A stretch of DNA of 54,322 bases from Chitinophagaceae bacterium (GTDB taxonomy: Bacteria; Bacteroidota; Bacteroidia; Chitinophagales; Chitinophagaceae), in assembly GCA_004173355.1 (NCBI GenBank), contig SEAD01000016.1:1-54322 (forward strand), written 5' to 3'. This document shows, piece after piece, positions 37,545 through 54,322 of this stretch. A model generated the notes under the pieces. That model saw nothing but the letters and a program-made list of their open reading frames with translations. It was not told the DNA's origin and searched no databases. The stretch's first letter is position 1; every line of letters begins with the position of its first letter. The position numbers and the translations under genes were made by a program.

Positions 37545-38822
37545 ATGGGTTTCCGGGATATATTTTCACTTGCATGGCGTACTGTACGTGGTAACAAGCT
37601 GCGTACGGGACTGACCGTGGCTATTATTGCCTTTGGTATCATGGCATTGGTGGGAATTATTACGGCTATCAAGGCGATGAACCAGAAGTTCACCGAAAGT
37701 TTCTCCAGCATGGGCGCCAATTCATTTACGATCCGTTTCCAGGAACGCAATTTCCGCATGGGCGGACCGGGTTCCGGCAACATCAGGTTATCCCGCAAGT
37801 CGGCGCGCAAGGAAAAGACATCGAGTCTCGGCCGCAGGATTACCCGTGACCAGGCGGAGTTGTTTATCCGTAATTACCAGTACCCTGCGCTTACCGGTGT
37901 GTCGGTGTTTGGCAACCGTAACAGTATTGTGTCGATGGGGGAAAAAAAGACCAGTCCGAATGTGATGGTCATGGGTGCGGATGAAAATTATGTGCAGCTG
38001 AATGGTATGGCTATTTCGGATGGGCGTAACCTGAGCCGCAGTGAAGTCCGTGCCGGTACAAATGTGTGCCTGCTTGGGTTTGATGTGGCGAATAAATTTT
38101 TTCCCGGACAGGCCGGACGTGCGGTGAATGCGCAGGTCCGGATAAACAATATTCCGTTCAGGGTGGCCGCTGTGCTGGAAAGCCGTGGGTCGAGTTTTGG
38201 TTTCAGCCGCGACAATATGATCATCACCAGCTATAATTGTATAGAAAAATATTTTTCAACCGGTAATTCCTATGTGGTGGCCGTGATGACAGATGACCTG
38301 CTGAAGATGGAGCAGGCGATGGGCGAGGCAGAAGCAGCTTTCCGCCCGATCCGCAAACTGACTACAACAGAGGAGAGTAATTTTGCGCTTGACCGGAGTG
38401 ACAGTGTGGCTGAGAAGGCGATGAAAAGCCTTGGATTCCTCACTATTGCGGCTACGGTTATCGGCCTGATCACACTGGCCGGTGCAGCGATCGGGCTGAT
38501 GAATATCATGCTGGTATCGGTCTCCGAGCGCACGAAGGAAGTGGGCCTGGTTAAGGCCATTGGCGGGAAAGGGAAGATGGTGCAACGGCAGTTTCTCCTG
38601 GAATCCATGATCATCAGCCTTCTCGGCGCGTTCTTCGGCATTGTTTTAGGGGTATGCGTGGGCAATCTGTTCTCGTCATTCCTTGGTACGGGTTTCGTAG
38701 TTCCCTGGGATTGGGTGATTGGGGGTATACTGCTTTGCGGAGTTGTAGGTCTTGCCGCGGGCATTTACCCTGCCATCAAAGCAGGGAGGCTGAATCCCAT
38801 CGATGCCCTGCGATATGAATAA
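37545..38822 (+). CDS. ABC transporter permease (MacB/FtsX type)
   Basis: 425-residue inner-membrane permease of the MacB class. One N-terminal helix (about 22-42, TGLTVAIIAFGIMALVGIIT) precedes a periplasmic MacB-type domain (about 45-290), then three helices in the FtsX domain (about 295-320, 345-375, 385-410), ending GIYPAIKAGRLNPIDALRYE. The matching ATPase is not in the window. It is 34 bases after nuoN. TAAATTTA at 37533-37540, a one-mismatch -7 box, may give it its own promoter. MacB-type transporters move lipoproteins, toxins or peptides; the cargo here is unknown. Confidence 0.88.
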   Translation: MGFRDIFSLAWRTVRGNKLRTGLTVAIIAFGIMALVGIITAIKAMNQKFTESFSSMGANSFTIRFQERNFRMGGPGSGNIRLSRKSARKEKTSSLGRRITRDQAELFIRNYQYPALTGVSVFGNRNSIVSMGEKKTSPNVMVMGADENYVQLNGMAISDGRNLSRSEVRAGTNVCLLGFDVANKFFPGQAGRAVNAQVRINNIPFRVAAVLESRGSSFGFSRDNMIITSYNCIEKYFSTGNSYVVAVMTDDLLKMEQAMGEAEAAFRPIRKLTTTEESNFALDRSDSVAEKAMKSLGFLTIAATVIGLITLAGAAIGLMNIMLVSVSERTKEVGLVKAIGGKGKMVQRQFLLESMIISLLGAFFGIVLGVCVGNLFSSFLGTGFVVPWDWVIGGILLCGVVGLAAGIYPAIKAGRLNPIDALRYE

Positions 38823-39017: not shown

Positions 39018-39878
39018 ATGGCTGAGACAAAACCAACTGCAAGCGCATCGGTTAAGGCTACTTCTGTTCAACCCAAGAAAAGCGGTAATTCTATCTCGTG
39101 GATCGCTCCGATCGTTTGTATTGTTGCTGGTTATTTAATCTGGCGTTTCGTTTTCGGCGCTGAAAGTGGTTTCACAGATCCGGACAAAGCAGGTGGATTC
39201 TGGCCGAAACACCACGGACCTAAAGGAGCCCTCAATGGTATCTATGAAGGTGGTATCATCGTTCCTCTTCTCGTTGGGATGCTGCTGATGGTATTCGTGT
39301 TCTCGATCGAGCGTTTCCTCACAATTCAGAAAGCGCTTGGTAGCGGTTCTATTTCTGATTTCATCCGTAAAGTACAATATCACCTCGCTAACCGTAACGT
39401 AGATGCGGCCCTGAGCGAGTGTGACAAACAGCGTGGATCTGTAGCCAACGTAATGAAGGCTGGTCTCCGCCGTTACAAGGAAATGATCAACGAAGGTGGT
39501 CTTGACACTGAGCAGAAAGTGCTTTCTATCCAGAAAGAAGTGGAAGAAGCTACTGCGCTTGAACTTCCAATGCTCCAGAAGAACCTCGTGTTCCTTTCCA
39601 CTATTACATCAGTTGGTACCCTCGTTGCCCTCCTGGGTACGGTAATGGGTATGATCCGTGCCTTCGCTGGTCTCGGTGCATCCGGTGGTGGTTCTGATAC
39701 CAACGCACTTGCGGTAGGTATCTCTGAAGCACTTTACAACACAGCGATCGGTATCGGTACATCTGCCCTGGCGCTTGTAATGTATAACGTATTTACTACC
39801 AAGATCGACTCGATCACTTATGGTATCGATGAGTCTGGTTTCACACTTACGCAGAGCTTTGGTTCACTTTACAAATAA
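39018..39878 (+). CDS. exbB: MotA/TolQ/ExbB proton channel protein
   Basis: Inner-membrane proton channel subunit that energises TonB. 286 residues, with a helix at about 27-47, then about 78-97, a cytoplasmic stretch, and paired helices at about 190-213 and 236-258. The channel signature LLGTVMGMIRAF (205-216) is clear. Compared with E. coli ExbB it has a longer N-terminus, with the segment FTDPDKAGGFWPKHHGPKG between helices 1 and 2. Codon use is strongly biased (CGT, GGT, AAC), so it is probably highly expressed. Preceded by a 195-base leader region with no clear promoter match. First of a four-gene operon. Confidence 0.92.
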   Translation: MAETKPTASASVKATSVQPKKSGNSISWIAPIVCIVAGYLIWRFVFGAESGFTDPDKAGGFWPKHHGPKGALNGIYEGGIIVPLLVGMLLMVFVFSIERFLTIQKALGSGSISDFIRKVQYHLANRNVDAALSECDKQRGSVANVMKAGLRRYKEMINEGGLDTEQKVLSIQKEVEEATALELPMLQKNLVFLSTITSVGTLVALLGTVMGMIRAFAGLGASGGGSDTNALAVGISEALYNTAIGIGTSALALVMYNVFTTKIDSITYGIDESGFTLTQSFGSLYK

Positions 39879-39941
39879 ATCCGGAATAGTTTTATGGATT
39901 TGTCCTGACTATTCATCTCATTATTTTAAAAGTAGCAAACA

Positions 39942-40607
39942 ATGCCAAGCGTAAAATTACCAAAGAAGAGCACTGACACGGACATGACGCCGTTCGTGGA
40001 CATTGCTTTTCTGCTGTTGTCATTTTTCATCATGGCAACGAAGTTTAAGCCGCCTGAGCCGGTGAAAGTGGAAACCCCGAATTCGGTTTCCTCTGCAAAG
40101 CTCAAGGAGGAGAATTCAGTCCTGATCACTATTGATAATGAAAGCAAGGTGTATGTGAGCTTTGGTGGTAAAACCACGGAAGACAAAGGCAAGATCACCG
40201 GCATTATCAATGACCTGAATTCTTCCCGCAGTCTCGGTCTCACCCCTCAGGAAATCGAAGCTTTCCAGTCGACCCCGCTTATTGGTGTACCTCTCGCCGG
40301 TATCAAAAACCTGCTGAGTCGTCCGCTTGCTGAGCGTGAAAAAATCAAACAACCCGGTATTCCTGTCTCTGACAGCCTGAATAACGAGCTTGTATGGTGG
40401 GTTGGTGCAGCGAAGAAAGCCTTTGGCGGTACCAAACTGATGTACCTGGTGAAGGGAGATAATACTTCCAAGTTCCCCGCGTTCGAGTCCGTTATCAACG
40501 CACTGAAAAGGAACGAGGAATTCAAGTATTTCCTGATCACCGGTCAGGAAGGTGCACCGGCTGGTTCGGATCTTGCGAACAAGCTGTCAGCTGACTCGCG
40601 GAAATAA
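39942..40607 (+). CDS. exbD: ExbD/TolR family biopolymer transport protein (first copy)
   Basis: Stator partner of ExbB, with one membrane helix and a periplasmic domain. 221 residues. The proton-path aspartate is D20, in DMTPFVDIAFLLLSFF. At 221 residues it is longer than the usual 140-residue ExbD. The extra part lies in the periplasmic domain at about 85-150 (from SLGLTPQEIEAFQSTP to SLNNELVWW). 63 bases after exbB and 29 before the second copy. Confidence 0.88.
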   Translation: MPSVKLPKKSTDTDMTPFVDIAFLLLSFFIMATKFKPPEPVKVETPNSVSSAKLKEENSVLITIDNESKVYVSFGGKTTEDKGKITGIINDLNSSRSLGLTPQEIEAFQSTPLIGVPLAGIKNLLSRPLAEREKIKQPGIPVSDSLNNELVWWVGAAKKAFGGTKLMYLVKGDNTSKFPAFESVINALKRNEEFKYFLITGQEGAPAGSDLANKLSADSRK

Positions 40608-40636
40608 ATTTATTCAAATAAGTAAACCATTTTATT

Positions 40637-41260
40637 ATGGCAAGTATTGAAGGCGGAGACGGCGGGGGCCACAAGAAAGGCCCCGGGGTGAAAAAAGCCA
40701 AAAAGCTGTCTACCCGCGTGGATATGACTCCCATGGTGGATCTCGGGTTCCTGCTTATTACTTTCTTCATCTTTACTGCTACGCTGAGCACTCCGTCCAC
40801 GATGGATCTCAACGTGCCGAAGGATACAGACAAGGATGAGGAGCAGACCAAGGCCAAACAGTCCGGCGCGCTGACCATCATGCTCGGTAAGAATAACAAT
40901 GTTTATTACTACGAGGGTGAGTTAAGTGCGGAAGGGTTCAAACAGACTACGTTCAAAGGTATCCGTGATATCATCATCAAGAAAAAGAGATCGGTGATTG
41001 CGGCGTATACCGGCAGCGCAGCCTGTGAAGAGAAGGCACGTGCCAAGAAACTGGATGTGCGTTCCGAATGTGCCGATGAGGATTTTGTGGTGGTTATCAA
41101 GCCGATGCCGGATGCTACTTACAAAAACACCGTGGATATCCTTGATGAGATGACGATCAACCAGGTGAAACGTTTTGCCATGGTAAAAATCGCTGACTCT
41201 GAAAAGGAACTGATTGTGGCTACCGAGGGTCCTTCAACAGGGACAACCCCGGCACCATAA
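40637..41260 (+). CDS. exbD: ExbD/TolR family biopolymer transport protein (second copy)
   Basis: Second, diverged ExbD of 207 residues. A glycine/lysine-rich cytoplasmic N-terminus leads to the helix with D35 (RVDMTPMVDLGFLLITFF). The periplasmic domain ends with NQVKRFAMVKIADSEKELI and a threonine/proline tail. Two cysteines sit in the periplasmic part (SAACEEKARA and SECADEDF), close enough in sequence to form a disulfide (inference). Having two ExbD types suggests a heteromeric stator. Confidence 0.88.
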   Translation: MASIEGGDGGGHKKGPGVKKAKKLSTRVDMTPMVDLGFLLITFFIFTATLSTPSTMDLNVPKDTDKDEEQTKAKQSGALTIMLGKNNNVYYYEGELSAEGFKQTTFKGIRDIIIKKKRSVIAAYTGSAACEEKARAKKLDVRSECADEDFVVVIKPMPDATYKNTVDILDEMTINQVKRFAMVKIADSEKELIVATEGPSTGTTPAP

Positions 41261-41322
41261 TTTTCCCGGAAAGCTTGTGGAAAGTGCCACAACCTGCATC
41301 TAATTATTAAACAAACTGACAA

Positions 41323-42150
41323 ATGGAAGCTAATAAGATTTTATCTGCCGACCTGCTGGACCTCGTTTTCGAGGGTCGGAACAAGGAGTATGGGGCTTAC
41401 CAGTTGCGCAAAACTTACAATAAGCGCATTATCCTGGCCCTCGTAATCACGGCTTCTGTTGCCCTGCTGGCGCTGGTTAGTTCTTTCATTGCCAATCGCA
41501 TGGAAGATGACGGACCTGCCAAGGTAGAGGTGAAAGAGGTAACGATGATGGACCTGAAGGAAGAGGAGAAGATTGTGGAACCGCCACCTCCCCCTCCGCC
41601 GAAGCCACCAGATCCTCCAAAAATTGAAATGAAACAGTTCACCCCTCCCAAGATCGTGAAGGATGAGGAAGTGCAGGAGCCACCTCCCGCGCAGGAAGAA
41701 CTGAAAGAAGCAAAAATTGACGTGGTTAGCCAGGAAGGTATCAAGGACGAAGGTATTGCTGCCCCTGTAGTAGTGGACGATGGTAAAGGTATCGTTGAGA
41801 CTAAAAAAGTTGAAGACGAAAACAAGATCTTCGAAAAAGTGGAGATCGAAGCCTCGTTCAAAGGCGGTGAAGGTGCCTGGAGGAAATTCCTCGAAAGGCA
41901 GCTGAACCCGAACGCCCCGATCGATAACGGTGCACCGGAAGGTGTGTATACAGTGTACGTGCAGTTTGTTGTGAGCAAAGACGGTAGCATCAGCGACGTT
42001 AAAGCCCTGACCAGTCATGGATATGGTATGGAAGCTGAAGCGGTACGCGTTATCAAAAAAGGTCCGAGCTGGGTACCAGCGGTGCAGAACGGTCGTCCCG
42101 TGAATGCATTCCGGAAACAGCCGATCACGTTCCAGGTTACTTCTGAATAA
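41323..42150 (+). CDS. tonB: TonB energy transducer
   Basis: Transmits proton-motive force from ExbB/ExbD to outer-membrane receptors. 275 residues. A cytoplasmic N-terminus of about 34 residues (with GRNKEYGAYQLRK, typical of Bacteroidota TonB) precedes a membrane helix at about 36-57. A proline-rich periplasmic stretch follows (eight prolines in a row region at 87-94, then KPPDPPK), and a C-terminal TonB domain at about 185-275 with GVYTVYVQFVVSKDGSI and AEAVRVIKKGPSW. Normal length. Terminator 22 bases after the stop. Confidence 0.93.
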   Translation: MEANKILSADLLDLVFEGRNKEYGAYQLRKTYNKRIILALVITASVALLALVSSFIANRMEDDGPAKVEVKEVTMMDLKEEEKIVEPPPPPPPKPPDPPKIEMKQFTPPKIVKDEEVQEPPPAQEELKEAKIDVVSQEGIKDEGIAAPVVVDDGKGIVETKKVEDENKIFEKVEIEASFKGGEGAWRKFLERQLNPNAPIDNGAPEGVYTVYVQFVVSKDGSISDVKALTSHGYGMEAEAVRVIKKGPSWVPAVQNGRPVNAFRKQPITFQVTSE

Positions 42151-44118: not shown

Positions 44119-44694
44119 TTAGTCGGTCAATCCGAGATAGGCTTTTACTGCCGTGTAATCAGACCAGTCAACTGCTGTGGACGATCTTGCAGTGGTGCCG
44201 CCTGGCACAATCATATAACGGTATTGCTGGTATTTATTACCACCCGATGAAACGGTACTCAGGTCGGCATTGGAATACAATTCAATTGTCTGGGTGTAAG
44301 CCACCATCTGGATGTACAGGCCGGAGTTAAGGCTGCTGTAGGGTAAGGCAAGAATGACGGGATCTGCTGCCGTATTGGAATTGATGTATGCTTTTACATC
44401 CGCGGATGCCAGCAGGGCTGTGGTCAGCTTCGGTGCATCGATAATTGCGTAATACCCAACAGTGTCAATGCCACCGTTTCCAAGGTGGATAGTATCAGGC
44501 TTGTAGGACACGTCCAGCCAGGCTGAATAAATCACATTGCTCGTTCCGGGAGGTCCAGCGGGTCCTGCAGGTCCGGCGGGTCCGGTGGCTCCATCAGCAC
44601 CAGTTGAACCATCCTTACTGCAGGATGCCATAAGCACAACAAAAAAAAGTCCTGACAACAGGACCAGCGGGGAAAGGAGGTTTCGTCTTTTCAT
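44119..44694 (-). CDS. Collagen-like lipoprotein
   Basis: 191 residues from the ATG at 44694 (MKRRNLLSPLVLL; the frame extends to 44730). Signal peptide with lipobox M-A-S-C25. Directly after it, residues 29-49 are seven G-x-y triplets (GSTGADGATGPAGPAGPAGP, then GPPG), a short collagen-like stalk. The C-terminal 140 residues are probably a beta-rich globular domain, containing YSAWLDVSYKPD and QYRYMIVPGGTTA. A surface-exposed, stalked lipoprotein is the likely picture; function unknown. Converges on mnmE. Confidence 0.8.
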   Translation of the reverse strand: MKRRNLLSPLVLLSGLFFVVLMASCSKDGSTGADGATGPAGPAGPAGPPGTSNVIYSAWLDVSYKPDTIHLGNGGIDTVGYYAIIDAPKLTTALLASADVKAYINSNTAADPVILALPYSSLNSGLYIQMVAYTQTIELYSNADLSTVSSGGNKYQQYRYMIVPGGTTARSSTAVDWSDYTAVKAYLGLTD

Positions 44695-44841
44695 TTTGGA
44701 ATTAATGTTTGAGGGTATGATGTATTTCACACCTGATTCTTTTGGATTACCAAAGTAAACATTCTTTTCAGGAATTCAAATTGCATCACACGGATACCAG
44801 CGGGCAGCAGGGGTTACAGAAAGTTGACCGGTCCCGTGTTG

Positions 44842-46755
44842 TCAGAGTTTACGTATGCTGATATTGCTGACATGGTAGAGGTTTTTTTCATTCACTACCA
44901 GCGAAAAACCTTTTAACCGCATATCGGCATTGTAGGAGGTGTTGCATTCGTAAATGACTTTGTTGCCGGAAACAAAACTGATGGTGCTTCCTGTTTTGCG
45001 AAGTTTAACCGTGGACTGGTTGACGGGCGCGCTGCCTTTGAAGTCCGGAAGGGAGTAATAATTTTTCATCGTGCAGCCTGCGTTGCCGAAGTTGAACATT
45101 ACCCATCCTTCTGCATCTTTCCGGTTCATATCCCCGGGTGAAATATCAAACGTAAATTTTTTTTCACCGGCACTTGTCATGAAAGGGAGTTCGATCACGA
45201 TACCCGGCGTACCCCATGGCACATCCCCTTTCCGCACCAGCAGGTCCATACTGAATTCAAAGTCGTCTTTCAGGTCCAGTGCCAGCTGTTTCGGAGTTGC
45301 CTTTTTCTGCAGCTTCAGCCATTTTCCTTTTACCCCATCCACTTCCCCGACACTTACGCCATCACCCGAATGGTTTTTTTCGGTGGTCCAGTTTTTCGGC
45401 GAGCCACCTGTGGCCACCGAAGAGAAGTCTTCAAAAAACAAAACCGATTTATCGGCCGTTAGCCTTTTTGCATTATCGGAAAGGGCAGTGGAGGCCTGGT
45501 TGTTTTGTTTTTCCTCCTGTGTGGCAAAAGGCACAACAGTATATGCCTGCGTTGTTTTATTTTCAAAATAATAATTGTAGAGGTAATCGTAATTGAACCG
45601 GCTGGTGAAATTATCCATCAGGTCGGAGCAGCCTCCGAAGCTCTCGTCCAGGGCACCCTGGATCGTACACACGATCCATTGCGGGCCACCAGTCGCGCAG
45701 GCCTGTTTCGCCTCTTTTTTCAGGTGCAGTAAAGGGAAAGCCGTTTCCACCCAACCGTTTTTGCCCTGTTTTACAGGCTGTGTACCGATCCAGGTTATTT
45801 CCTTTGCCTCCTCGATACCGGCGAGATCGAGACAGTCAATATCATTGTTGACATCGGTGAAATAGACATAATCGCCGAGCCGGTTTTTATAATTGTTTTT
45901 CAGGATCCGTATTCCCCGCTGTGCGTTCTCCAGCAGGTTGGTGGACCGGATGTTCATATTCATCGCGATCTTGTACATCGTGGGAAGTTGCTTTTCCAGA
46001 CGGGCAATATATTCACCCATGGTGACCTGTTCAAAGGGTAGTGGCTTACCGTCGCGGGTCAATACAACCACGTACAGGTTGGCGTCGGGTCGCAGGTAAT
46101 GATCAAATTTTTTCAGGTTGGGACTATTGGTAAAGTCACGGTATTGTGCCATCTGGTCCCTCCAGTCTTTCTCATACTGCCCTTTCATCCCGATAGTATA
46201 ACGCGGCTGGATACAATAGTAGTCCTCAGGGGAAGAGAGGTATGCCATCTGCCGGCTGATCAGTTCCACGTTATTGGCCATTACATTCCAGGTGGTGTAA
46301 CACCAGTTGCCTGGCATCGGAAAGAATTTATGTTTGCTGTTTCTGACCAGGCATTTATGCAAACGCGCAAATGCCCCGTAGGTATTGGGCAGTGCGCGTT
46401 TATTATCCTTTTCTGCTTCATTGTATTCATATGACCGGTTGCCAATGGGTAATGCCGGCACAGGTGCCAGTATACTCGGAATCATTTCGCCCAGCAGTCC
46501 TTTCGGGCTATACGTCCGCTGCCAGTCAGTCACCAGTTTCTGTGTAAATGCACCTTGCACTGCCGGATAGGTCCAGCCATTTTTCACCACCGCTCCTGGC
46601 GCCAGTTTGTATTGTATGGTTTCCAGCCATCCGACCTGCACGTCTTCGAGGTCTTTGGAGTCGTACCAGCCTTTTTCATTGGTTGGCTGGGCGAATGAAC
46701 TGGTTACACTGGCCGTCAGGAGCAGGCAGGCCAGGAACGGGGCAACTTTGAGCAT
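44842..46755 (-). CDS. Large secreted protein of unknown function
   Basis: 637 residues with signal peptide 1-22 (MLKVAPFLACLLLTASVTSSFA, then Q). The N-terminal 430 residues contain many aromatics and scattered cysteines (NWCYTTWNVMANN, CIQPRYTIG, QWIVCTIQG) and match no family I know. A C-terminal domain at about 440-637 looks like a concanavalin/LamG-type beta sandwich (SVLFFEDFSSVATGGSPKNW to GFSLVVNEKNLYHVSNISI). A sugar-binding or enzyme role is possible but unproven. A one-mismatch -7 box (TAAGTTTA on the minus strand, 46779-46786) precedes the start by 24 bases. Confidence 0.75.
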   Translation of the reverse strand: MLKVAPFLACLLLTASVTSSFAQPTNEKGWYDSKDLEDVQVGWLETIQYKLAPGAVVKNGWTYPAVQGAFTQKLVTDWQRTYSPKGLLGEMIPSILAPVPALPIGNRSYEYNEAEKDNKRALPNTYGAFARLHKCLVRNSKHKFFPMPGNWCYTTWNVMANNVELISRQMAYLSSPEDYYCIQPRYTIGMKGQYEKDWRDQMAQYRDFTNSPNLKKFDHYLRPDANLYVVVLTRDGKPLPFEQVTMGEYIARLEKQLPTMYKIAMNMNIRSTNLLENAQRGIRILKNNYKNRLGDYVYFTDVNNDIDCLDLAGIEEAKEITWIGTQPVKQGKNGWVETAFPLLHLKKEAKQACATGGPQWIVCTIQGALDESFGGCSDLMDNFTSRFNYDYLYNYYFENKTTQAYTVVPFATQEEKQNNQASTALSDNAKRLTADKSVLFFEDFSSVATGGSPKNWTTEKNHSGDGVSVGEVDGVKGKWLKLQKKATPKQLALDLKDDFEFSMDLLVRKGDVPWGTPGIVIELPFMTSAGEKKFTFDISPGDMNRKDAEGWVMFNFGNAGCTMKNYYSLPDFKGSAPVNQSTVKLRKTGSTISFVSGNKVIYECNTSYNADMRLKGFSLVVNEKNLYHVSNISIRKL

Positions 46756-46958: not shown

Positions 46959-48008
46959 ATGAAAAAAATACCTGTCCTGTTCGCCGTGTACGTCACATTT
47001 TTCCTGAACCTTTCCTGCAGCAAGGATAAAAAAAGTATGCAACCGGATCCGGATGGGCGGACTGTCATCGCAGTCGGTTCGTTTGAGAATAATGCCGGGA
47101 TAACGGTGCCGGCCGTCTGGGTGAACGGTGTTCCGCAAACGCTTGGTTCGGTTGAAGGGGAAGCGTACGACCTGTTTGTTTCGGGATCGGATGTGTATGT
47201 AACCGGATATGAACTGACCGGTACCGGGAGCGACCGGGTTGCGAGGTTGTGGAAGAATGGCGTAGGCCAGACCCTGCCATCCGGTACCGGTTATGCTTCG
47301 GGTGAGCAGGTATATGTGGCAAACAACAAAGTGTATGTCCTGGGGTTTGATGATTTCAGTTACCGGACTGCTCTATGGGTCGACGGCGTTAAACAGGCAG
47401 TACCACTGCCCGCGCATCCATACAATGGGGGTAACCAGAACGTGGGACTGGCCGTAGACGGGACCGATATTTATACCTGCGGTGCAACCCGCAACGCCCG
47501 CGGTACGGCCAAGGCAACGCTGATGAGAGGTGGCGGCAGGATGGGCGTTGACACCCTGGCCAATACCGTATCGCATGCCGAGCGGATCTTTATTTCGGGG
47601 AAAGATGTGTATATGGTCGGACTGGAAGAAGAGGGCGTGTTGGTAAAACCACGACTCTGGAAGAACGGCCAGCGACAGGAACTGGACAACCTGCCTGCCC
47701 AGGGTTATATGCAATGTGTTGAAGTGGAAAACGGTAACGTGTATGTTGTGGCGGAAAACCGGTCAACACTCGCGGGTGACGAATTGATTTTATGGAAAAA
47801 CGGAAAAATCATTCACCGCATTCCCGGCGCCGGGAACCACCTGTCGGCAGATGGTATTTCGGTAATGGATGGAGACGTATATATCTGCGGCCATGAATCG
47901 ATCAGGACGACGGGCGAAAACCAGATCCGCATCTGGAAAAACGGGGCGGTCCAGGAGATATCGCCGGGTGGAGGTCTTGCCGTGCTGACAAACCTGGTGG
48001 TGAAGTAA
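46959..48008 (+). CDS. Lipoprotein with repeated WKNG-type blades
   Basis: 349 residues; signal peptide MKKIPVLFAVYVTFFLNLS with cysteine at residue 20 (a relaxed lipobox, N-L-S-C). The mature part is built of repeated units of about 45-50 residues, each with a strand VYVTGYE / VYVLGFD / IYTCGAT / VYMVGLE / VYVVAEN / VYICGHE, then LWKNG or LWVDG and a short strand. Six to seven units suggest a beta-propeller (inference). Ligand unknown. The start is the first ATG after a 203-base gap that holds a small CTATA...TATAG repeat (46875-46891). Confidence 0.78.
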   Translation: MKKIPVLFAVYVTFFLNLSCSKDKKSMQPDPDGRTVIAVGSFENNAGITVPAVWVNGVPQTLGSVEGEAYDLFVSGSDVYVTGYELTGTGSDRVARLWKNGVGQTLPSGTGYASGEQVYVANNKVYVLGFDDFSYRTALWVDGVKQAVPLPAHPYNGGNQNVGLAVDGTDIYTCGATRNARGTAKATLMRGGGRMGVDTLANTVSHAERIFISGKDVYMVGLEEEGVLVKPRLWKNGQRQELDNLPAQGYMQCVEVENGNVYVVAENRSTLAGDELILWKNGKIIHRIPGAGNHLSADGISVMDGDVYICGHESIRTTGENQIRIWKNGAVQEISPGGGLAVLTNLVVK

Positions 48009-48119: not shown

Positions 48120-49595
48120 ATGCCAGTCAGTGTTACCCGAAAGAATGTCCAGTTTGAACCGGACGCAAGCCGAGTGATCAGCCGTTTTTTTTACCCAAGT
48201 GATTCGCGCGCGACCGACCTCATTAAACGCATACTGGCGCTCCCCGAAAAAGAACAGCAGGAAGCACTGACCCAGGTGCTGAGGGATTATTCTAAAAGGC
48301 ATCGCAGTATTTCAAGGATTTTTGAAAAACACTTTGGAAAGCTCAGCAGATTACTGGAGCAGCTCGGAATCGATCCCCATTCACTCAGCATCGCACAAAA
48401 GGGTTTGATCGGTGCTTATTTCACCATGGAGTACTCCATCGAGGCAGCTGCGTTTTTTAATCCCAGTATCATGCAGGACCCCGACCAGACGGGTCTTGCA
48501 GAGGGCGAGACAAGGGTCATTCTCAGTTTCCGCGCCACTGGTGAGGGACATATTTCCTCTGTAGTGTTCCGGTCGGGCATTATTGACAGCAACAACGATA
48601 TCCAGATTGAACCCCCGGGTAAGATGCTGGAATCGCCGGAGCAGGTAAAAAACCACACCTACCATAAAACTTCTTTCCTCCGGAAACTGGAAGAAATGCA
48701 GACCTGGAACAGCAACGCATATTCCATCATGGGCGGGAAACTGACTGAAACTTTTACCTATGAAGAATTAAAGAGGTATGTTGAAGAAACGCGTGCCGTG
48801 GTGTCCGACGACCTGCAGAGCCAGGCATTACTGACAGAGATCATGTGGCTGGCTTCTTCCCATTATGAAATGGACTTCTCCGTAGATACGGCGATTTCGG
48901 AAAGGGTGATCTTCCCGATCGCCGACACCGAAATGAAGGGCATAGAAGATGCGCGGTTTGTCCGGTTTACGGGGGAGGATAATGAAGTGACATACTATGC
49001 AACCTATACTGCATTCGACGGCATAACCATCCTGCCAAAGCTCCTGATGACAAAAGACTTTTATCATTTCAAGGTAATGCCTGTCCATGGGGAGGTAGCG
49101 CAGAACAAGGGCATGGCGCTTTTCCCCCGCAAGATCAATGGAAAGTTTGCCATGCTTTGCCGGATTGATGGCGTGAATAATTATATCGCTTTCTCGGATA
49201 ATATCAATGTGTGGCGCGAAGCGAGTCTTCTCCAGACACCTGTTTTTCCGTGGGAGTTTGTGCAGATGGGTAATTGTGGATCACCCATCGAGACTTCTGA
49301 AGGTTGGCTGGTGATTACCCACGGCGTCGGCGCAATCAGGGAGTATGTGCTGGGTGTATCGCTGCTTGACCTGGAGAACCCCGCCCGTCAGATCGGGCGA
49401 TTGTCTGTACCATTACTCACACCCAACGCGCAGGAGCGGGAAGGTTATGTGCCGAACGTGGTCTATTCCTGTGGCTCCATGATCCATGGGGAGAACCTGG
49501 TGATCCCCTATGCGATGTCGGACTATGCATCCACCTATGCAACGGTTAACCTGGAAGAGCTGTTGGGGGAATTGAAAAAATCACCTGTGGGTTAG
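48120..49595 (+). CDS. Family GH130 glycoside phosphorylase/hydrolase
   Basis: 491 residues, no signal peptide, so cytosolic. Resembles GH130 beta-mannoside phosphorylases: conserved acid D277 in GIEDARFVRF, YYATYTAFDG, MALFPRKINGKF, GNCGSPIETSEGWLVITHGV, PNVVYSCGSMIHGENLVIPY, and MSDYASTYATVNLEELL at the end. An N-terminal helical extension of about 110 residues (with FEKHFGKLSRLLEQLGID) sits before the five-bladed catalytic domain. GH130 enzymes cleave or form beta-mannosidic bonds, usually by phosphorolysis; the substrate here is not shown. A -7-like TATTTTTA overlaps the ATG. Its end overlaps the convergent GT4 gene by four bases. Confidence 0.85.
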   Translation: MPVSVTRKNVQFEPDASRVISRFFYPSDSRATDLIKRILALPEKEQQEALTQVLRDYSKRHRSISRIFEKHFGKLSRLLEQLGIDPHSLSIAQKGLIGAYFTMEYSIEAAAFFNPSIMQDPDQTGLAEGETRVILSFRATGEGHISSVVFRSGIIDSNNDIQIEPPGKMLESPEQVKNHTYHKTSFLRKLEEMQTWNSNAYSIMGGKLTETFTYEELKRYVEETRAVVSDDLQSQALLTEIMWLASSHYEMDFSVDTAISERVIFPIADTEMKGIEDARFVRFTGEDNEVTYYATYTAFDGITILPKLLMTKDFYHFKVMPVHGEVAQNKGMALFPRKINGKFAMLCRIDGVNNYIAFSDNINVWREASLLQTPVFPWEFVQMGNCGSPIETSEGWLVITHGVGAIREYVLGVSLLDLENPARQIGRLSVPLLTPNAQEREGYVPNVVYSCGSMIHGENLVIPYAMSDYASTYATVNLEELLGELKKSPVG

Positions 49596-50602
49596 GCAGA
49601 CAGGGCCTGTTTGTACAGACTGATATAATCATCTACCATTTTTTCTCTGGTAAACATCGACATGGCCCATTCCCGGCAATCGTTGCGGTTGATAGCCGCT
49701 ATCTGTGCTGCGGCGTCGGCAGCCTCGTCCATGTTGTTCGCGAGGAATCCTGTACGTCCATGCCTGATCAGTTCGGGCATCGAACCCCGTGCATAAGCTA
49801 TCACCGGTGTACCGCAAAACATCGACTCAGCTACACTCAGCCCAAAGGGCTCGTCAAATGAAATCAGGTGAAGTAAGGCAAGGGCATTACCCAGCAGTTT
49901 GTCACGTTCCTGGGGATCACAATTTCCCAGGTATACTACCCGGTCGTTATCGATATGCGGCCGCACCGCCGAATTGAAATATTCTGTGTCCTGTACCGGT
50001 CCCGCAATAATCAGTTTCCTGTTGCAGCGCCTTGCAAGCCCGATAGCTTCGGATGTTCCTTTCTCCGGGTGGATCCTGCCAAAGAACAGGAAGTAGTCAC
50101 CCGGCTCCCGCCGGAACGTGAACCCGCTGCTGTTTATCCCGTTGTACACCGTTCCCAGGTAGTCGAGATCGGGATGGCGGTTGGCATTGCTGATGGAAAC
50201 ATAATGGCTGCCCTGGTTGTATTTTTTGTAAACCGGTATTATTTTCTCCGATGAAAATCCGTGGATCGTGGTGATGACGGGGGTGTTGGTGAGCCGGGTA
50301 TACGTCAGGGGTAAAAAATCAAAATGGTTGTGGATGATATCGAAGTTGTCTGCAGCTTCAAACACCTGGCTGATATGAAGGCATTCATTTACTTTGGCAT
50401 CTGTGTCCGGATCTTCCGAATATCCGCGTTTGATGCAGGATTCCAGTTTTGCGGTCGTGATGGAGTCAGCAGTGGCGAACAGGGTGACGTCATGGCCCCT
50501 GGCCACCAGTTCTTCCGTGATATTGGAAGCTACCAGTTCCCAGGGACCGTACTGCCGCGGCGGTGTACGCCAGGAGATGGGTGCAAGTATGGCTATGCGC
50601 AT
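49592..50602 (-). CDS. Family GT4 glycosyltransferase
   Basis: 336 residues from the ATG at 50602 (a GTG codon precedes it in frame). GT-B fold retaining glycosyltransferase: N-terminal acceptor domain starting MRIAILAPISWRTPPR with GPWELVASNITEELVARGH, donor domain with FFGRIHPEKGTSEAI, and the E-x7-E motif EPFGLSVAE for the nucleotide-sugar phosphate and ribose. The TGA of the preceding gene overlaps its ATG as TGATG, so the two are translationally coupled. Converges on the GH130 gene. Donor sugar unknown. Confidence 0.88.
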   Translation of the reverse strand: MRIAILAPISWRTPPRQYGPWELVASNITEELVARGHDVTLFATADSITTAKLESCIKRGYSEDPDTDAKVNECLHISQVFEAADNFDIIHNHFDFLPLTYTRLTNTPVITTIHGFSSEKIIPVYKKYNQGSHYVSISNANRHPDLDYLGTVYNGINSSGFTFRREPGDYFLFFGRIHPEKGTSEAIGLARRCNRKLIIAGPVQDTEYFNSAVRPHIDNDRVVYLGNCDPQERDKLLGNALALLHLISFDEPFGLSVAESMFCGTPVIAYARGSMPELIRHGRTGFLANNMDEAADAAAQIAAINRNDCREWAMSMFTREKMVDDYISLYKQALSA

Positions 50603-52839
50603 CACTGATCGGCTTTATAGAAATCATCAAATGCCTGAAGCACCGTCAGGTGGGAGATCAGGTAAGCGAGTGTGCTTTCTGCACCCTGGTTCCTGTTGAC
50701 CCCATAACTCTCCAGTCCGTCGCAGCATCCCTTCGTTTCAAAATCATACAGGCACATACGCATGTCATTTTCCCCGAGGAACCACATGAAGGATGCATAC
50801 AGTTTGTTGAGATAGGTTTTATCTTTTGTCAGGTGGAATGCCTGGTGGAACATGAGTACCATGGCCAGGGCATCAAGCGGCTGCTGCGCATAACGCGAGG
50901 ATTCGCCATCTTTCATGTACCAGTTTTCATTACCTACCAGCGACAGCGACCCATCTTTCAGGGTTATGTCGGAGAGGAACTGCATACTTTCGAGTGCGGT
51001 GTTACGGATCTGTTCGTCGTTAAGAATTCCGGCAGCATGTAACAGGGCAAGTGGCAGGATGGCGTTATCGTAGGCAAGCATGCCTTCAAACCAGCGCCAG
51101 TCTTCGGTTTTGTTCTCATTATAACGGTCCACCAGTTTGTAAGCCATTACCCGCAGTACGGATCGTATGTTTTCATCATTCGGGTTTTTCTGCAGGTAGT
51201 ATGCGGTACCGATCATGGTATTGGCAATACTCCGGATCGACCCGAGCTTTTCGAAATTGGGGACTGCTTCAAAAAAAATCTGTTGCCCCGACTGGAAGTA
51301 GGCGTCGTTCGGGGCATTGCCAAGCAGGTATCCAAGTGCCCAGATGGTGCGGCCGAATGAATCTTCCGAGCCCTGTTCATCGAGGAAATCGCGGCGGAAG
51401 CTGAGGAAGTTGCGGAAGCTGCCATCCTCATTCTGCATATAGTGGATATAACTGAGATAGACCGGCAGCAGATCCAGCGCAATGGGCAATTTCATTTGTT
51501 TGTGCGCCATCAGCACCATCAGTAATGCCCTTGCGTTGTCATCGAGACAGTACCCTTCTTTCAGGTTGGGGATCCCGAATTTCGCGTGCTGGATAATACC
51601 CGTATCATCGGTCATCCGTTTGATATGATCCAGGAGGAAAGGGGGCAGCAGCAATGGATCAAGGATGGTTTCTTTTTTCGGTGGCTGTCCGGATCCTTCC
51701 TGCATGACTGCCTTTGCCACGGCGATATATTTTGCCCCGGCTTTTGGCCAGGTGATCTCCAGTCCGTAGGTATGTGCTTTCTGCCGCAGTGTTTTCAGTT
51801 TGGCGGGATGGTCAAGCAGGTCGGTCAGGATAGTGGCGAGACCGTCTGAATCATTGAAGTCGAACAGCATGCCCCGGCCGTCTGCCAGGAGTTCGGTGGC
51901 ATGCCAGTAGGGCGTGGAGATTACGGCTGTGCCTGCGCCGACTGCATACGATAATGTACCGCTGGTGATCTGCGCTTCGTTGAGGTAAGGGGTGATATAG
52001 ATATCGGAGGCATGCAGGTACTGAAACAGTTCTTCCTGGTCGATGAATTCATTCAGGAACAACACATGTTTGTCGAGCTGTAATTTTTTTGCCAGCCGGA
52101 GCAGGAAAATCCGGTACTCTTCACCGGAGTGCCTGATGACTGCGGGATGGGTTTTACCGGCCACGATGTAAATGGTATCGGGATACTTTGCCACCACGGC
52201 CGGTAGCGCCTTGATGACTGTTTCGATGCCCTTATTACGACTGATAAACCCGAATGTGAGCAGTACATTTTTCGATTCAAGTTTGAATTCTTTTTTCGCG
52301 AGATCGTGATCAAATTCAAAATCAGGCACACCATGTTCAATGAGTTCGATTTTTGAAGGCTCCACATTATAAATCTCCGTCAGGAATTCAACTGCCTTAT
52401 GCGTCATTACAATAATCCGGGCAGCCATCTTGCACACCTCCAGAAGGATTGCTTTTTCATTGTATGACGGGGTTTTCAGTACGGTGTGTAAGGTTACGAT
52501 CAGGGGGATCTCCAGCCGGTGAAGCAGGGGCAGGATGTACACGCCATTTTGTCCCCCGAAAATCCCGTATTCATGTTCGAGTATGCAGGTATCAGCGCCG
52601 CTGAGGTTGATGAAGCGGGCGGCTTCAATATAATCACCCTGCTGTTCCTGACGGATCTTCAGCTGGACTTCCCTGGGGTAGTCCAGTGGCTGGTCCTGGT
52701 CATGCATAGCCACAACAATTCCTTCATGCTGTTTGCGATTGTCTTTCCCGCGGTTGGTCATGGCGGAAAAGAGGTTCTGGGTGAACGTACCGATCCCGCA
52801 TTCCCGGGGTGGGTATGTCCCTATAAAAGCGATTTTCAT
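50602..52839 (-). CDS. GT4 glycosyltransferase fused to a C-terminal (alpha/alpha) domain
   Basis: 745 residues. N-terminal GT-B glycosyltransferase (about 1-380): MKIAFIGTYPPRECGIGTFT, the acceptor/donor linker LTFGFISRNKGIETVIKAL, and SYAVGAGTAVISTPYWHATELL at the donor site. The C-terminal part (about 400-745) is all-helical and resembles an alpha/alpha toroid of carbohydrate enzymes: GYCLDDNARALLMVLMAH, NEDGSFRNFLSF, EDSFGRTIWALGYL, LGSIRSIANTMIG, WFEGMLAYDNAILPLALLH, and GCCDGLESYGVNRNQGAEST. The two could act in series (transfer, then trimming). No signal peptide. First gene of a coupled pair with the GT4 at 49592; divergent from the GNAT-nitrilase gene. Confidence 0.85.
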   Translation of the reverse strand: MKIAFIGTYPPRECGIGTFTQNLFSAMTNRGKDNRKQHEGIVVAMHDQDQPLDYPREVQLKIRQEQQGDYIEAARFINLSGADTCILEHEYGIFGGQNGVYILPLLHRLEIPLIVTLHTVLKTPSYNEKAILLEVCKMAARIIVMTHKAVEFLTEIYNVEPSKIELIEHGVPDFEFDHDLAKKEFKLESKNVLLTFGFISRNKGIETVIKALPAVVAKYPDTIYIVAGKTHPAVIRHSGEEYRIFLLRLAKKLQLDKHVLFLNEFIDQEELFQYLHASDIYITPYLNEAQITSGTLSYAVGAGTAVISTPYWHATELLADGRGMLFDFNDSDGLATILTDLLDHPAKLKTLRQKAHTYGLEITWPKAGAKYIAVAKAVMQEGSGQPPKKETILDPLLLPPFLLDHIKRMTDDTGIIQHAKFGIPNLKEGYCLDDNARALLMVLMAHKQMKLPIALDLLPVYLSYIHYMQNEDGSFRNFLSFRRDFLDEQGSEDSFGRTIWALGYLLGNAPNDAYFQSGQQIFFEAVPNFEKLGSIRSIANTMIGTAYYLQKNPNDENIRSVLRVMAYKLVDRYNENKTEDWRWFEGMLAYDNAILPLALLHAAGILNDEQIRNTALESMQFLSDITLKDGSLSLVGNENWYMKDGESSRYAQQPLDALAMVLMFHQAFHLTKDKTYLNKLYASFMWFLGENDMRMCLYDFETKGCCDGLESYGVNRNQGAESTLAYLISHLTVLQAFDDFYKADQ

Positions 52840-52970: not shown

Positions 52971-54322
52971 ATGGATATGAACATAAATGAACTGAGTACC
53001 GGGCAACTTTCAGTGGACGACTACCAGGAATTACTTGAAGCGATGAAAGCGTCTTACCCGGGCTGGTCCGGTAGCTACTGGAGCCTTGTATCGATCAGTA
53101 AGCTCATCAGTACTTTTCCCGCGGGGCAAATTGTAATCAAAGCAAACGGAAAGGTAATTGGTTGCGCATTGTCGCTCATTGTAGACTACGATCGGTTTGA
53201 AGACAACCACACCTATAAACAGATCACGGGCAACTACACTTTCAGCACTCATGACCCGAATGGCGATGTGTTGTACGGAATTGAAGTTTTTATCCATCCG
53301 GATTACCGCGGACTAAGGATGGGCCGCAGGTTATATGATGCGAGAAAGGAATTGTGTGAAGAACTGAATCTTAAATCCATTGTGTTTGGCGGTCGCATTC
53401 CATATTATTTCAAACATTCGGAAAAGCTGAGTCCAAAGGAATATATCCACAAGGTAAAAACAAAGGAAATTTATGATCCGGTGCTGAGTTTCCAGCTGGC
53501 AAATGATTTTCACGTGATGAAAGTGATGCGGGGGTATATGCCGGAGGATCTTGAAAGTAAAGAGTTTGCCACCTTGCTCGAATGGGACAATATTTATTAT
53601 TCCCCCAGGGTGAAAAGGTCTTTCGGGCCCTCTGGTTATGTACGGCTCGGACTGGTTCAATGGCAGATGCGGCCCTATCCCGGCCTGGACGAATTGTTTG
53701 CACAGGTAGAGTACTTCGTGGATGCAGTATCCGGATACAAAAGCGACTTCGCACTTTTTCCCGAGTTGTTCAACGGCCCGCTGATGGCACAGTTCAGCCA
53801 TCTGGGCGAAGCCGAATCCATGCGTGCCATTGCGCGTTTCACCAATGAAATCAGGGATAAATTCCTTTACCTCGCAATCAAGTATAATGTAAATATTATC
53901 ACCGGCAGTATGCCGAGTATCGAGGGTGAGAAACTGAAAAATGTCGGGTTCCTGTGCCACCGCAACGGTAAGGTGGACAGTTATGAAAAAATCCACGTCA
54001 CACCTGATGAATCCAAGTCATGGGGTATGCAGGGTGGTAGTAAAGTACAGTCTTTTGAAACAGACGCCGGTAAGATCGGGATCCTGATCTGTTATGATGT
54101 GGAGTTTCCCGAACTCGCCCGCCTGCTGGCAGCACAGGGCATGCAGATCCTGTTTGTTCCATTCCTTACTGATACCCAGAATTCGTATATGCGCGTACGT
54201 TGCTGCGCGCAGGCGAGGGCAATCGAGAACGAATGTTTTGTGGCGATTTCCGGCAGCGTGGGCAATCTGCCCAACGTGGAAAATATGGATATATCCTATT
54301 CCCAATCCGTGGTGTTTACACC
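52971..54322 (+). CDS. GNAT acetyltransferase fused to carbon-nitrogen hydrolase, cut by window end
   Basis: Open from the ATG at 52971 to the end of the window, 450 codons with no stop; the C-terminus is missing. N-terminal GNAT domain (about 1-185) with YDRFEDN and the acetyl-CoA-binding region VFIHPDYRGLRMGRRLYDARKEL. From about residue 215 a nitrilase-superfamily domain begins at VRLGLVQWQMRPY. Its triad is E265 (FPELFNG), K340 (EKIHVTP) and C374 (ICYDVEFPE). Such GNAT-amidohydrolase fusions are known in Bacteroidota, probably acting on an amine/amide substrate; the substrate is unknown. Divergent from the GT4 fusion gene, with 131 bases between starts. Confidence 0.88.
   Translation, partial: MDMNINELSTGQLSVDDYQELLEAMKASYPGWSGSYWSLVSISKLISTFPAGQIVIKANGKVIGCALSLIVDYDRFEDNHTYKQITGNYTFSTHDPNGDVLYGIEVFIHPDYRGLRMGRRLYDARKELCEELNLKSIVFGGRIPYYFKHSEKLSPKEYIHKVKTKEIYDPVLSFQLANDFHVMKVMRGYMPEDLESKEFATLLEWDNIYYSPRVKRSFGPSGYVRLGLVQWQMRPYPGLDELFAQVEYFVDAVSGYKSDFALFPELFNGPLMAQFSHLGEAESMRAIARFTNEIRDKFLYLAIKYNVNIITGSMPSIEGEKLKNVGFLCHRNGKVDSYEKIHVTPDESKSWGMQGGSKVQSFETDAGKIGILICYDVEFPELARLLAAQGMQILFVPFLTDTQNSYMRVRCCAQARAIENECFVAISGSVGNLPNVENMDISYSQSVVFT

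Follow-up and report, generated by a model that had tools for sequence, protein, structure and literature searches.

A GH130-family enzyme and two GT4-family glycosyltransferases encoded on a stretch of DNA from a Chitinophagaceae bacterium (assembly GCA_004173355.1, contig SEAD01000016.1; 54,322 nucleotides, hereafter the window) constitute a conserved and mobile gene module, built from known protein families and containing a distinct type of GH130 protein. The three genes, termed here GH130, GT4a and GT4b, appear to be the local version of a module that is widespread and spreads horizontally, and of which no description turned up among the open-licence PMC papers listed in literature searches. 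Computation establishes the co-occurrence and linkage of the genes, their domain make-up, an altered active-site residue and the gene context; from these we infer the sugar, donor, bond types and physiological role associated with this module. With a confidence slightly short of even, we propose that it produces and edits an intracellular glycan that contains mannose and is either soluble or lipid-linked, that synthesis is fed by GDP-mannose, and that the GH130 enzyme acts at beta-1,2-mannose ends. A synthesis-and-editing set is more likely than a polysaccharide utilisation locus (PUL), and mannose most likely accounts for at least part of the sugar.

Organization and conservation of the module

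The module occupies the following positions of the window (aa, amino acids).

48120..49595, plus strand: GH130, long-form enzyme of 491 aa (ATG at 48120, TAG at 49593-49595; PF04041)
49592..49595, no strand: four-base overlap of the convergent GH130 and GT4a genes, read from the sequence
49592..50602, minus strand: GT4a, GT4-family glycosyltransferase of 336 aa (PF00534, 78 bits; TAA at 49594-49592)
50600..50604, minus strand: TGATG stop-start coupling of GT4b and GT4a (GT4b TGA at 50604-50602 overlapping GT4a ATG at 50602-50600)
50602..52839, minus strand: GT4b, GT4 glycosyltransferase with an (alpha/alpha)6 domain, 745 aa (PF00534, 62 bits)

A first-pass annotation of the window had reported the four-base convergent overlap, the TGATG join and a GH130 lacking a visible signal peptide, all of which were confirmed on the sequence; on direct reading, no signal peptide was seen at the GH130 N-terminus (MPVSVTRKNVQFEPDASRV), which has no hydrophobic stretch. 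GH130 scores above the curated cut-off of PF04041 (99.3 versus 26 bits), and both glycosyltransferases match Pfam GT1/GT4 models (Glycos_transf_1/GT4 domains). The list of open reading frames (ORFs) starts GT4a from a GTG at 50605, while the ATG at 50602 yields the 336 aa given above.

Within a family sample of 147 genomes, including that of the window, 24 encode a long GH130 (E <= 1e-100). Close relatives of GT4b, defined by the C-terminal domain at E <= 1e-90 plus one contig-edge fragment (G128), were found in 23 of these 24 genomes and in none of the 123 others (Fisher p 5e-26, relatedness ignored), and close relatives of GT4a (E <= 1e-120) in 17 of 24 versus 0 of 123 (p 5e-17, relatedness again ignored). 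Divergent forms occur among the 123 genomes without a long GH130, comprising GT4b in eight (33-36% identity) and GT4a in two. Neighbourhoods were fetched for 21 of the other 23 family genomes, giving 22 loci with the window (individual loci are cited by L numbers). The convergent GT4b-GT4a/GH130 order is kept in 16 of the 21 fetched loci, and GT4b lies within 7.5 kb of GH130 in 21 of 22, at about 7.4 kb in one (L035). Among the remaining arrangements, L029, L030 and L033 possess GT4b without a close GT4a next to GH130, and L045 has neither glycosyltransferase. The refuting condition that the first-pass annotation had set for its proposal, neighbourhoods in which the genes are not kept together, was decided in the proposal's favour by most, though not all, relatives.

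Gene families outside the module each recur in at most four of these 22 loci, so that the module seems mobile as a unit. That abundant Bacteroidota GH130 and GT4 genes simply met by chance might be suggested by the contents of the genome itself, which has 24 GT1-domain matches (21 above cut-off) and four GH130 matches; the near-perfect co-occurrence, together with linkage conserved in several phyla and in two gene orders, leads us to reject this explanation as extremely improbable.

Distribution across phyla and plasmids

In a phylum-wide sample, GH130 matches at E <= 1e-30, shorter forms included, were present in 56 of 395 genomes. A scan of species genomes, represented by the best 80 of at least 583 GH130 relatives and sharing some contigs with the family set, provided 79 loci with an intact GH130, 43 of them with full flanks (7.5 kb or more on each side). 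GT4b, divergent types included, was identified in 28 of the 43 full-flank loci and GT4a in 14. Across 71 loci, GH130 and GT4b distances were correlated (Mantel r 0.54; 0/2000 permutations).

Among 72,556 plasmid records, 48 match GH130 at E <= 1e-20, some through other GH130 types (e.g. in Listeria), and 28 match GT4b at 1e-40, many of these being near-identical or closely related. Taking best-scoring places, GH130 and GT4b are separated by no more than 700 bp in 20 of the 28 and by 4 kb in three; they are farther apart in three, and two have no GH130 row. In two of the records counted as farther (NZ_CP011450 and NZ_CP119128), GT4b and GH130 are annotated next to each other, another GH130 copy having scored best. 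Further, a Deinococcus plasmid without a GH130 row contains an unannotated short GH130; its order of GT4b-GT4a followed by a “hypothetical” gene, which is the short GH130, represents a variant of the module. In Ilyobacter (Fusobacteriota), GT4a, a short GH130, a long GH130 and GT4b stand in one row. Two architectures were distinguished: a convergent form in Bacteroidota, and a co-directional, often overlapping form in Alphaproteobacteria, where GH130 and GT4b recur on plasmids, and in Ilyobacter. The window GT4a is 58% identical to the Ilyobacter copy and 52% to that of the Deinococcus plasmid. Many loci that otherwise resemble that of the window lack GT4a.

Several further arrangements were observed. 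On a Sphingomonas paeninsulae plasmid (NZ_CP032827.1; L172:9120-11331), GT4b is broken into several annotated ORFs, with GH130 about 4 kb away. A phage record from human faeces (“Bacteriophage sp.”, MT836224.1:5649-6917) carries a GH130 relative with 39.7% identity over 82%, and may be bacterial DNA. In Bacteroidales-type loci (L079:11037-14133, also L059, L064 and L055), a second recurring set, of PIG-L-type deacetylase, GT4-like and GH100/debranching-like genes, occurs near the long GH130.

Fold and active site of the long GH130 proteins

The AlphaFold model of the window GH130 (pLDDT 87.9) has the five-bladed propeller of the GH130 family, whose solved structures are its best matches. First among them are phosphorylases of beta-1,2-mannobiose and of 1,2-beta-oligomannan (Z 36), the beta-1,2-mannobiose phosphorylase 7fir scoring highest (Z 36.2, root-mean-square deviation 1.8, 282 residues aligned, 31% identity); GH130 hydrolases follow at Z 30-31. 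Fold matches to GT108 reach Z 21-22 (6q50, Z 21.9) and do not exceed those to GH43 (Z about 22). No GT108 chain was present among hmmsearch matches at E up to 1, and we do not assign GH130 to GT108, a missing match being in itself no proof. The parts that distinguish the long form, and the residues discussed below, are as follows.

48120..48434, plus strand: N-terminal extension, aa 1 to about 105, mostly helical (alignment; model helices)
48600..48884, plus strand: insertion of about aa 161-255 between the first and second part of the beta-propeller (alignment; model)
48945..48950, plus strand: Glu276-Asp277, the catalytic Asp and its neighbour, kept in 101/102 long forms
49263..49265, plus strand: Gln382, in a column that is Lys/Arg in four solved GH130 enzymes (alignment of long forms)

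Alphaproteobacterial copies have 34-39 residues in the stretch 161-260. Glu276, Asp277, Lys330, Arg348, His401 and Asp468 are each conserved in 101 of 102 long forms, with the role of the catalytic Asp as described in an excerpt of PMC4599007, while the Gln382 column comprises Q in 98, K in three and L in one. That column is Arg or Lys in the solved enzymes Teth514_1788, Teth514_1789, Lin0857 and Uhgb_MS. Plasmid copies agree with the long forms: of 15 alphaproteobacterial proteins 14 have Gln here, as does that of Ilyobacter, and the Croceicoccus protein has Lys. Additional short GH130 genes (308-309 aa) stand beside GT4a in L055, L057, L071 and L109; these, together with the short Ilyobacter and the Deinococcus proteins, carry Lys at this column, such that Gln and Lys types occur side by side in L055, L057, L071, L109, Ilyobacter and L045. 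The long proteins are thus a distinct GH130 group with an altered active-site residue.

GH130 mannoside phosphorylases bind phosphate through three basic residues, and in BT3780-type beta-1,2-mannosidases glutamates (Glu227 and Glu268 in BT3780) replace basic residues (both from excerpts of PMC4599007). The window enzyme presents Arg348, Gln382 and Asn385; a GH92-GH130 fusion of the same genome has Glu at column 385 in one automatic alignment. Under an assignment of the published trio that is partly our assumption, the window GH130 departs from the phosphorylase set, with Arg348 kept (101/102) and the expected Lys/Arg replaced by Gln382. Judged by these residues, the enzyme is atypical for a phosphorylase.

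A lysine equivalent to BT3780 Lys199 accompanies beta-1,2 specificity in GH130 (PMC4599007, excerpt). Lys330, which is also Lys in Teth514_1788/1789, is predicted by alignment to fall in this column, as expected of a beta-1,2 enzyme, and together with the closest structures being beta-1,2-mannoside phosphorylases it offers a hint of beta-1,2 action. In the short GH130 proteins of Bacteroidota and Ilyobacter the same column is Arg, and their linkage specificity may accordingly differ.

A two-domain glycosyltransferase and a possible envelope role

GT4b comprises two domains, the GT4 domain (aa 1-390) and a C-terminal domain (aa 391-745), which are encoded by separate GT4 and (alpha/alpha)6 protein genes in 7 of the 21 fetched family loci (L038-L044).

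50605..51669, minus strand: GT4b C-terminal (alpha/alpha)6 glycosidase-like domain, aa 391-745 (model pLDDT 95.7)

By itself the C-terminal domain matches no Pfam family at E 0.05; among 50 relatives, 25 weakly match Glyco_hydro_88 and nine match C5-epim_C. Its fold is most similar to 7tem (Z 39.3), followed by cellobiose 2-epimerase (Z 31.7), the GH9 exo-enzyme 6gdt (Z 29.7) and the GH76 protein 4v1r (Z 29.0). Across the 50 sequences Asp44 never varies, and Asp43 and Glu331 hardly do. AGE epimerases rely on conserved catalytic His residues; in this domain no His is invariant, and only H15 reaches 90% or more. Despite the similar fold (Z 31.7), an AGE-epimerase function is therefore disfavoured, and the conserved acidic residues in the absence of an invariant His mean that, judged by fold and conservation, a glycosidase fits better.

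The weak best solved matches of GT4b are PimA-type mannosyltransferases. This would be consistent with an envelope glycan, in which the GT4 proteins, much as PimA does, would glycosylate a lipid acceptor at the face of the membrane, its head group being trimmed by GH130 in the course of synthesis or under stress. Signalled remodelling of such a glycan is suggested by GH130 proteins fused to a response-regulator receiver (REC) domain, and in Croceicoccus genes for cardiolipin synthase and cyclopropane-fatty-acyl synthase stand beside GH130. Against this, the PimA match is at the level of the GT4 superfamily, and further gene families (partly named) recur in at most 4 of 22 family loci and at most 8 of 80 species-scan loci, the latter being the best 80 of at least 583. 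We consider an envelope role quite unlikely.

The C-terminal REC domain is found in 12 of 102 long GH130 proteins (11 if L030 and L094 are one contig). Such fusions, e.g. L029:8656-10518, L033:9258-11120 and L035:9409-11268, mostly have GT4b beside them and lack GT4a, and are possibly sugar enzymes under phosphorylation control.

Mannose supply and the proposed pathway

Fifteen alphaproteobacterial GH130 regions were read (L158-L166 and L168-L173, with L160 and L165 being one plasmid), and in ten a GDP-mannose supply gene lies in or near the operon. On the Sphingobium yanoikuyae plasmid pSES220, the one case with a whole supply operon, the order is groES-groEL, mannose-1-phosphate guanylyltransferase/mannose-6-phosphate isomerase, mannose-6-phosphate isomerase, GT4b, GH130 and phosphomannomutase (with PGM/PMM domains), followed by a hybrid histidine kinase gene. 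Sinorhizobium and Devosia have mannose-6-phosphate isomerase-GT4b-GH130, and four sphingomonad plasmids have guanylyltransferase-GT4b-GH130 adjoining GrpE, DnaK, DnaJ-type, Usp and HAD-IIB genes. The HAD-IIB proteins of L159 and L165 (sphingomonad) and L168 (Croceicoccus) match the eukaryote-type phosphomannomutase (PMM) family PF03332 and, about equally well, the general Hydrolase_3. Because of these supply genes mannose is the likely sugar, which strengthens an earlier suggestion that the glycan is “perhaps mannose-based”.

GT4 enzymes are retaining and form alpha bonds. As GH130 enzymes act on beta-mannosides (PMC4599007, excerpt), it is unlikely that the same bond is made and broken, and the make-and-break cycle put forward in the first-pass annotation is, in its simple form with one bond both formed and cleaved, rejected on stereochemical grounds. 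Instead, GT4b and GT4a may add one or more alpha-linked sugars, mannose at least partly, to an acceptor, with GDP-mannose as the likely donor, and the (alpha/alpha)6 domain of GT4b would probably trim or transglycosylate their product. GH130 could then add or remove a beta-1,2-mannosyl end via mannose 1-phosphate or another activated mannose, or release that end on recall; alternatively, it may act on a different part of the glycan begun by the glycosyltransferases. Such a glycan would probably serve in storage or stress protection.

A role in stress is plausible from neighbouring genes and the REC fusions. Chaperone, Usp or Dps genes occur in 6 of the 15 alphaproteobacterial regions, four of which share one island, and L099 has RelA/SpoT-domain and Usp genes nearby. 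In Sphingomonas melonis Fr1, adjacent EcfG-dependent genes are listed as “#1750 Glycosyltransferase” and “#1751 Glycosidases” (PMC6599016, excerpt); this pair may or may not be related to the module, and the second gene may be an alpha-amylase gene of the kind found in L174. In that locus, on a Sphingomonas parapaucimobilis plasmid (L174:6303-10008), genes for a GH130 of 371 aa and an alpha-amylase-family protein form an operon with a GT4a that shares 54% identity with the window copy.

Several findings weigh against the proposal of a mannose glycan made and edited within the cell. No mannose supply gene adjoins the module in the window, and five of the 15 alphaproteobacterial regions have none (L161, L163, L169, L171 and L173), L163 and L171 having an AGE epimerase gene. 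The L174 arrangement of GT4a beside GH130 and an alpha-amylase gene indicates that glucose may be involved too. Partners are also inconstant: 15 of the 43 full-flank loci lack GT4b and 13 lack any partner within 7.5 kb (among the best 80 of at least 583 relatives), and close GT4a at E 1e-70 is limited to three plasmid records in all, none of them an alphaproteobacterial module plasmid. With regard to stress, the associated genes may be mere island neighbours of the module rather than functional partners. An exact scan of the 15 alphaproteobacterial loci for the EcfG motif returned three matches, where about 3.9 were to be expected. None of the three immediately precedes GT4b, GH130 or any supply gene; that in L168 falls within cls, some 540 bp ahead of a gene that overlaps GH130. 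On this exact motif, EcfG regulation of the module is not favoured, and the storage or stress role proposed at first pass retains the neighbouring genes and REC fusions in its favour, with the EcfG motif unenriched.

Additional evidence against the same proposal comes from degradative settings among relatives, where SusC/SusD genes were confirmed by domain scan in L044, L045 and L108, other loci being screened by a size rule. L045 (L045:3-14519), whose GH130 is 41% identical to that of the window and has the same Gln, contains SusC/SusD genes and then an ABC-import operon encoding a solute-binding protein, two permeases, a MalK-like ATPase, a GFO/IDH oxidoreductase and both Gln-type and Lys-type GH130. 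In L108 a SusC/SusD pair adjoins GH130 with no glycosyltransferase partner, and in L044 such a pair lies beside the full module. Elsewhere, L034 has a gene for a TonB-dependent receptor at a distance of about 6 kb, L048 a SusC/SusD-like pair by size and start only, and the SusC/SusD-type candidate of L026 has no Pfam match. The other GH130 proteins of the window genome also look catabolic, one occurring with SusD and MFS genes (L001) and one fused to GH92 (L002), while that of L004 is of the mannosyl-glucose phosphorylase type and accompanied by AGE epimerase and SSF transporter genes.

These settings bear on a salvage pathway in which GH130 phosphorolyses or hydrolyses imported beta-1,2-mannosides to mannose or mannose 1-phosphate, destined for GDP-mannose that the glycosyltransferases merely consume, as proposed for Thermoanaerobacter (PMC4264767, excerpt). 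The closest structures are indeed Thermoanaerobacter beta-1,2-mannoside phosphorylases, from a cluster with GT4, guanylyltransferase and two GH130 genes (same excerpt). Conversely, a scan of the window proteins of the 29-54 kb stretch with Pfam and NCBIfam profiles revealed no SusC/SusD; the family loci offer no importer as a constant partner, given that no non-module family exceeds 4 of 22; mannose-6-phosphate isomerase and PMM genes beside GH130 supply mannose from central metabolism; and the phosphate-site Lys/Arg is lost in the long GH130. Owing to L044, L045 and L108 we raised our estimate for salvage slightly, leaving it unlikely, and lowered that for internal synthesis and editing from even to just below. 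A PUL is rejected for the window locus only: the first-pass view that this is not a PUL holds there, with the qualification that SusC/SusD genes lie near three relatives and an ABC importer in one of them.

Other genes of the window

The related statement that no transporter is near stands for SusC/SusD within 29-54 kb, though a MacB/FtsX-type permease gene (37545-38822) and ExbB/ExbD/TonB genes (39018-42150) are present upstream of the module, at a distance of 6-11 kb. Closer to GH130, a protein with a lipoprotein-like start and a short collagen-like Gly-Pro-Ala repeat (44119-44730) has no Pfam match, and two proteins of 637 and 349 aa (44842-46755 and 46959-48008) have no Pfam or NCBIfam match at E 0.001. 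On the other side, a GNAT acetyltransferase fused to a nitrilase-type carbon-nitrogen hydrolase (52983-54322) is divergent from GT4b and truncated by the window end; it is unmatched in relatives' loci of the family.

Comparison with known systems

The Thermoanaerobacter Teth514_1788/1789 cluster comprises GT4, guanylyltransferase, two GH130 genes, an ABC importer and GH5 (PMC4264767, excerpt). It resembles the module in placing cytosolic beta-1,2-type GH130 enzymes, the nearest solved structures, beside GT4 and a GDP-mannose synthesis gene, and differs from the window locus in its ABC importer and GH5; the excerpted text describes no GT4 with a fused (alpha/alpha)6 domain. Its GH130 proteins have 303-313 residues in PDB and Arg/Lys at the Gln382 column. 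The beta-1,2-mannosidases BT3780 and BACOVA_03624 share with the window GH130 the fold, the catalytic Asp and, by alignment, the beta-1,2 Lys, and are secreted PUL enzymes (PMC4599007, excerpt), unlike the window protein, which by eye lacks a signal peptide and lies outside a PUL. Uhgb_MS (PDB 9eqq, 9erg and 9erh) likewise has the GH130 fold (Z about 35), with Arg at the Gln382 column and 350-358 residues; this mannoside synthase builds beta-1,2-mannosides from mannose 1-phosphate (PMC8950772, excerpt). For the GT4b C-terminal domain, the counterpart is YPO2471 (PDB 7tem), also of (alpha/alpha)6 fold (Z 39.3, 18% identity; profile E 1.2e-20), which by its record title is a stand-alone exported protein.

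The Leishmania mannogen system, with GT108, parallels our reading of the module in its related propeller fold (6q50, Z 21.9), beta-1,2-mannose chemistry and intracellular reserve (PMC8950772, excerpt). GT108 differs in belonging to another CAZy family, and its fold similarity to the window GH130 (Z 21.9, versus 36 for GH130 enzymes) is no better than that of GH43. The mannogen system is not known to have GT4 partners. A more specific form of our proposal, which we hold to be doubtful, is a bacterial mannogen counterpart: mobile, signal-regulated and fed by GDP-mannose, with GT4b and GT4a making a primer and the Gln-type GH130, as a new catalytic type, making and recalling a cytosolic beta-1,2-mannose reserve or protectant. 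If the broader proposal is correct, many Bacteroidota and environmental Alphaproteobacteria would possess a mannose glycan inside the cell that has yet to be described, together with dedicated enzymes for its synthesis and editing, a system moved partly on conjugative plasmids. It would also assign a function to a large and so far uncharacterised group of GH130 proteins, widen the chemistry of this family past the division into phosphorylases and hydrolases, and represent a bacterial parallel to the Leishmania mannogen reserve.

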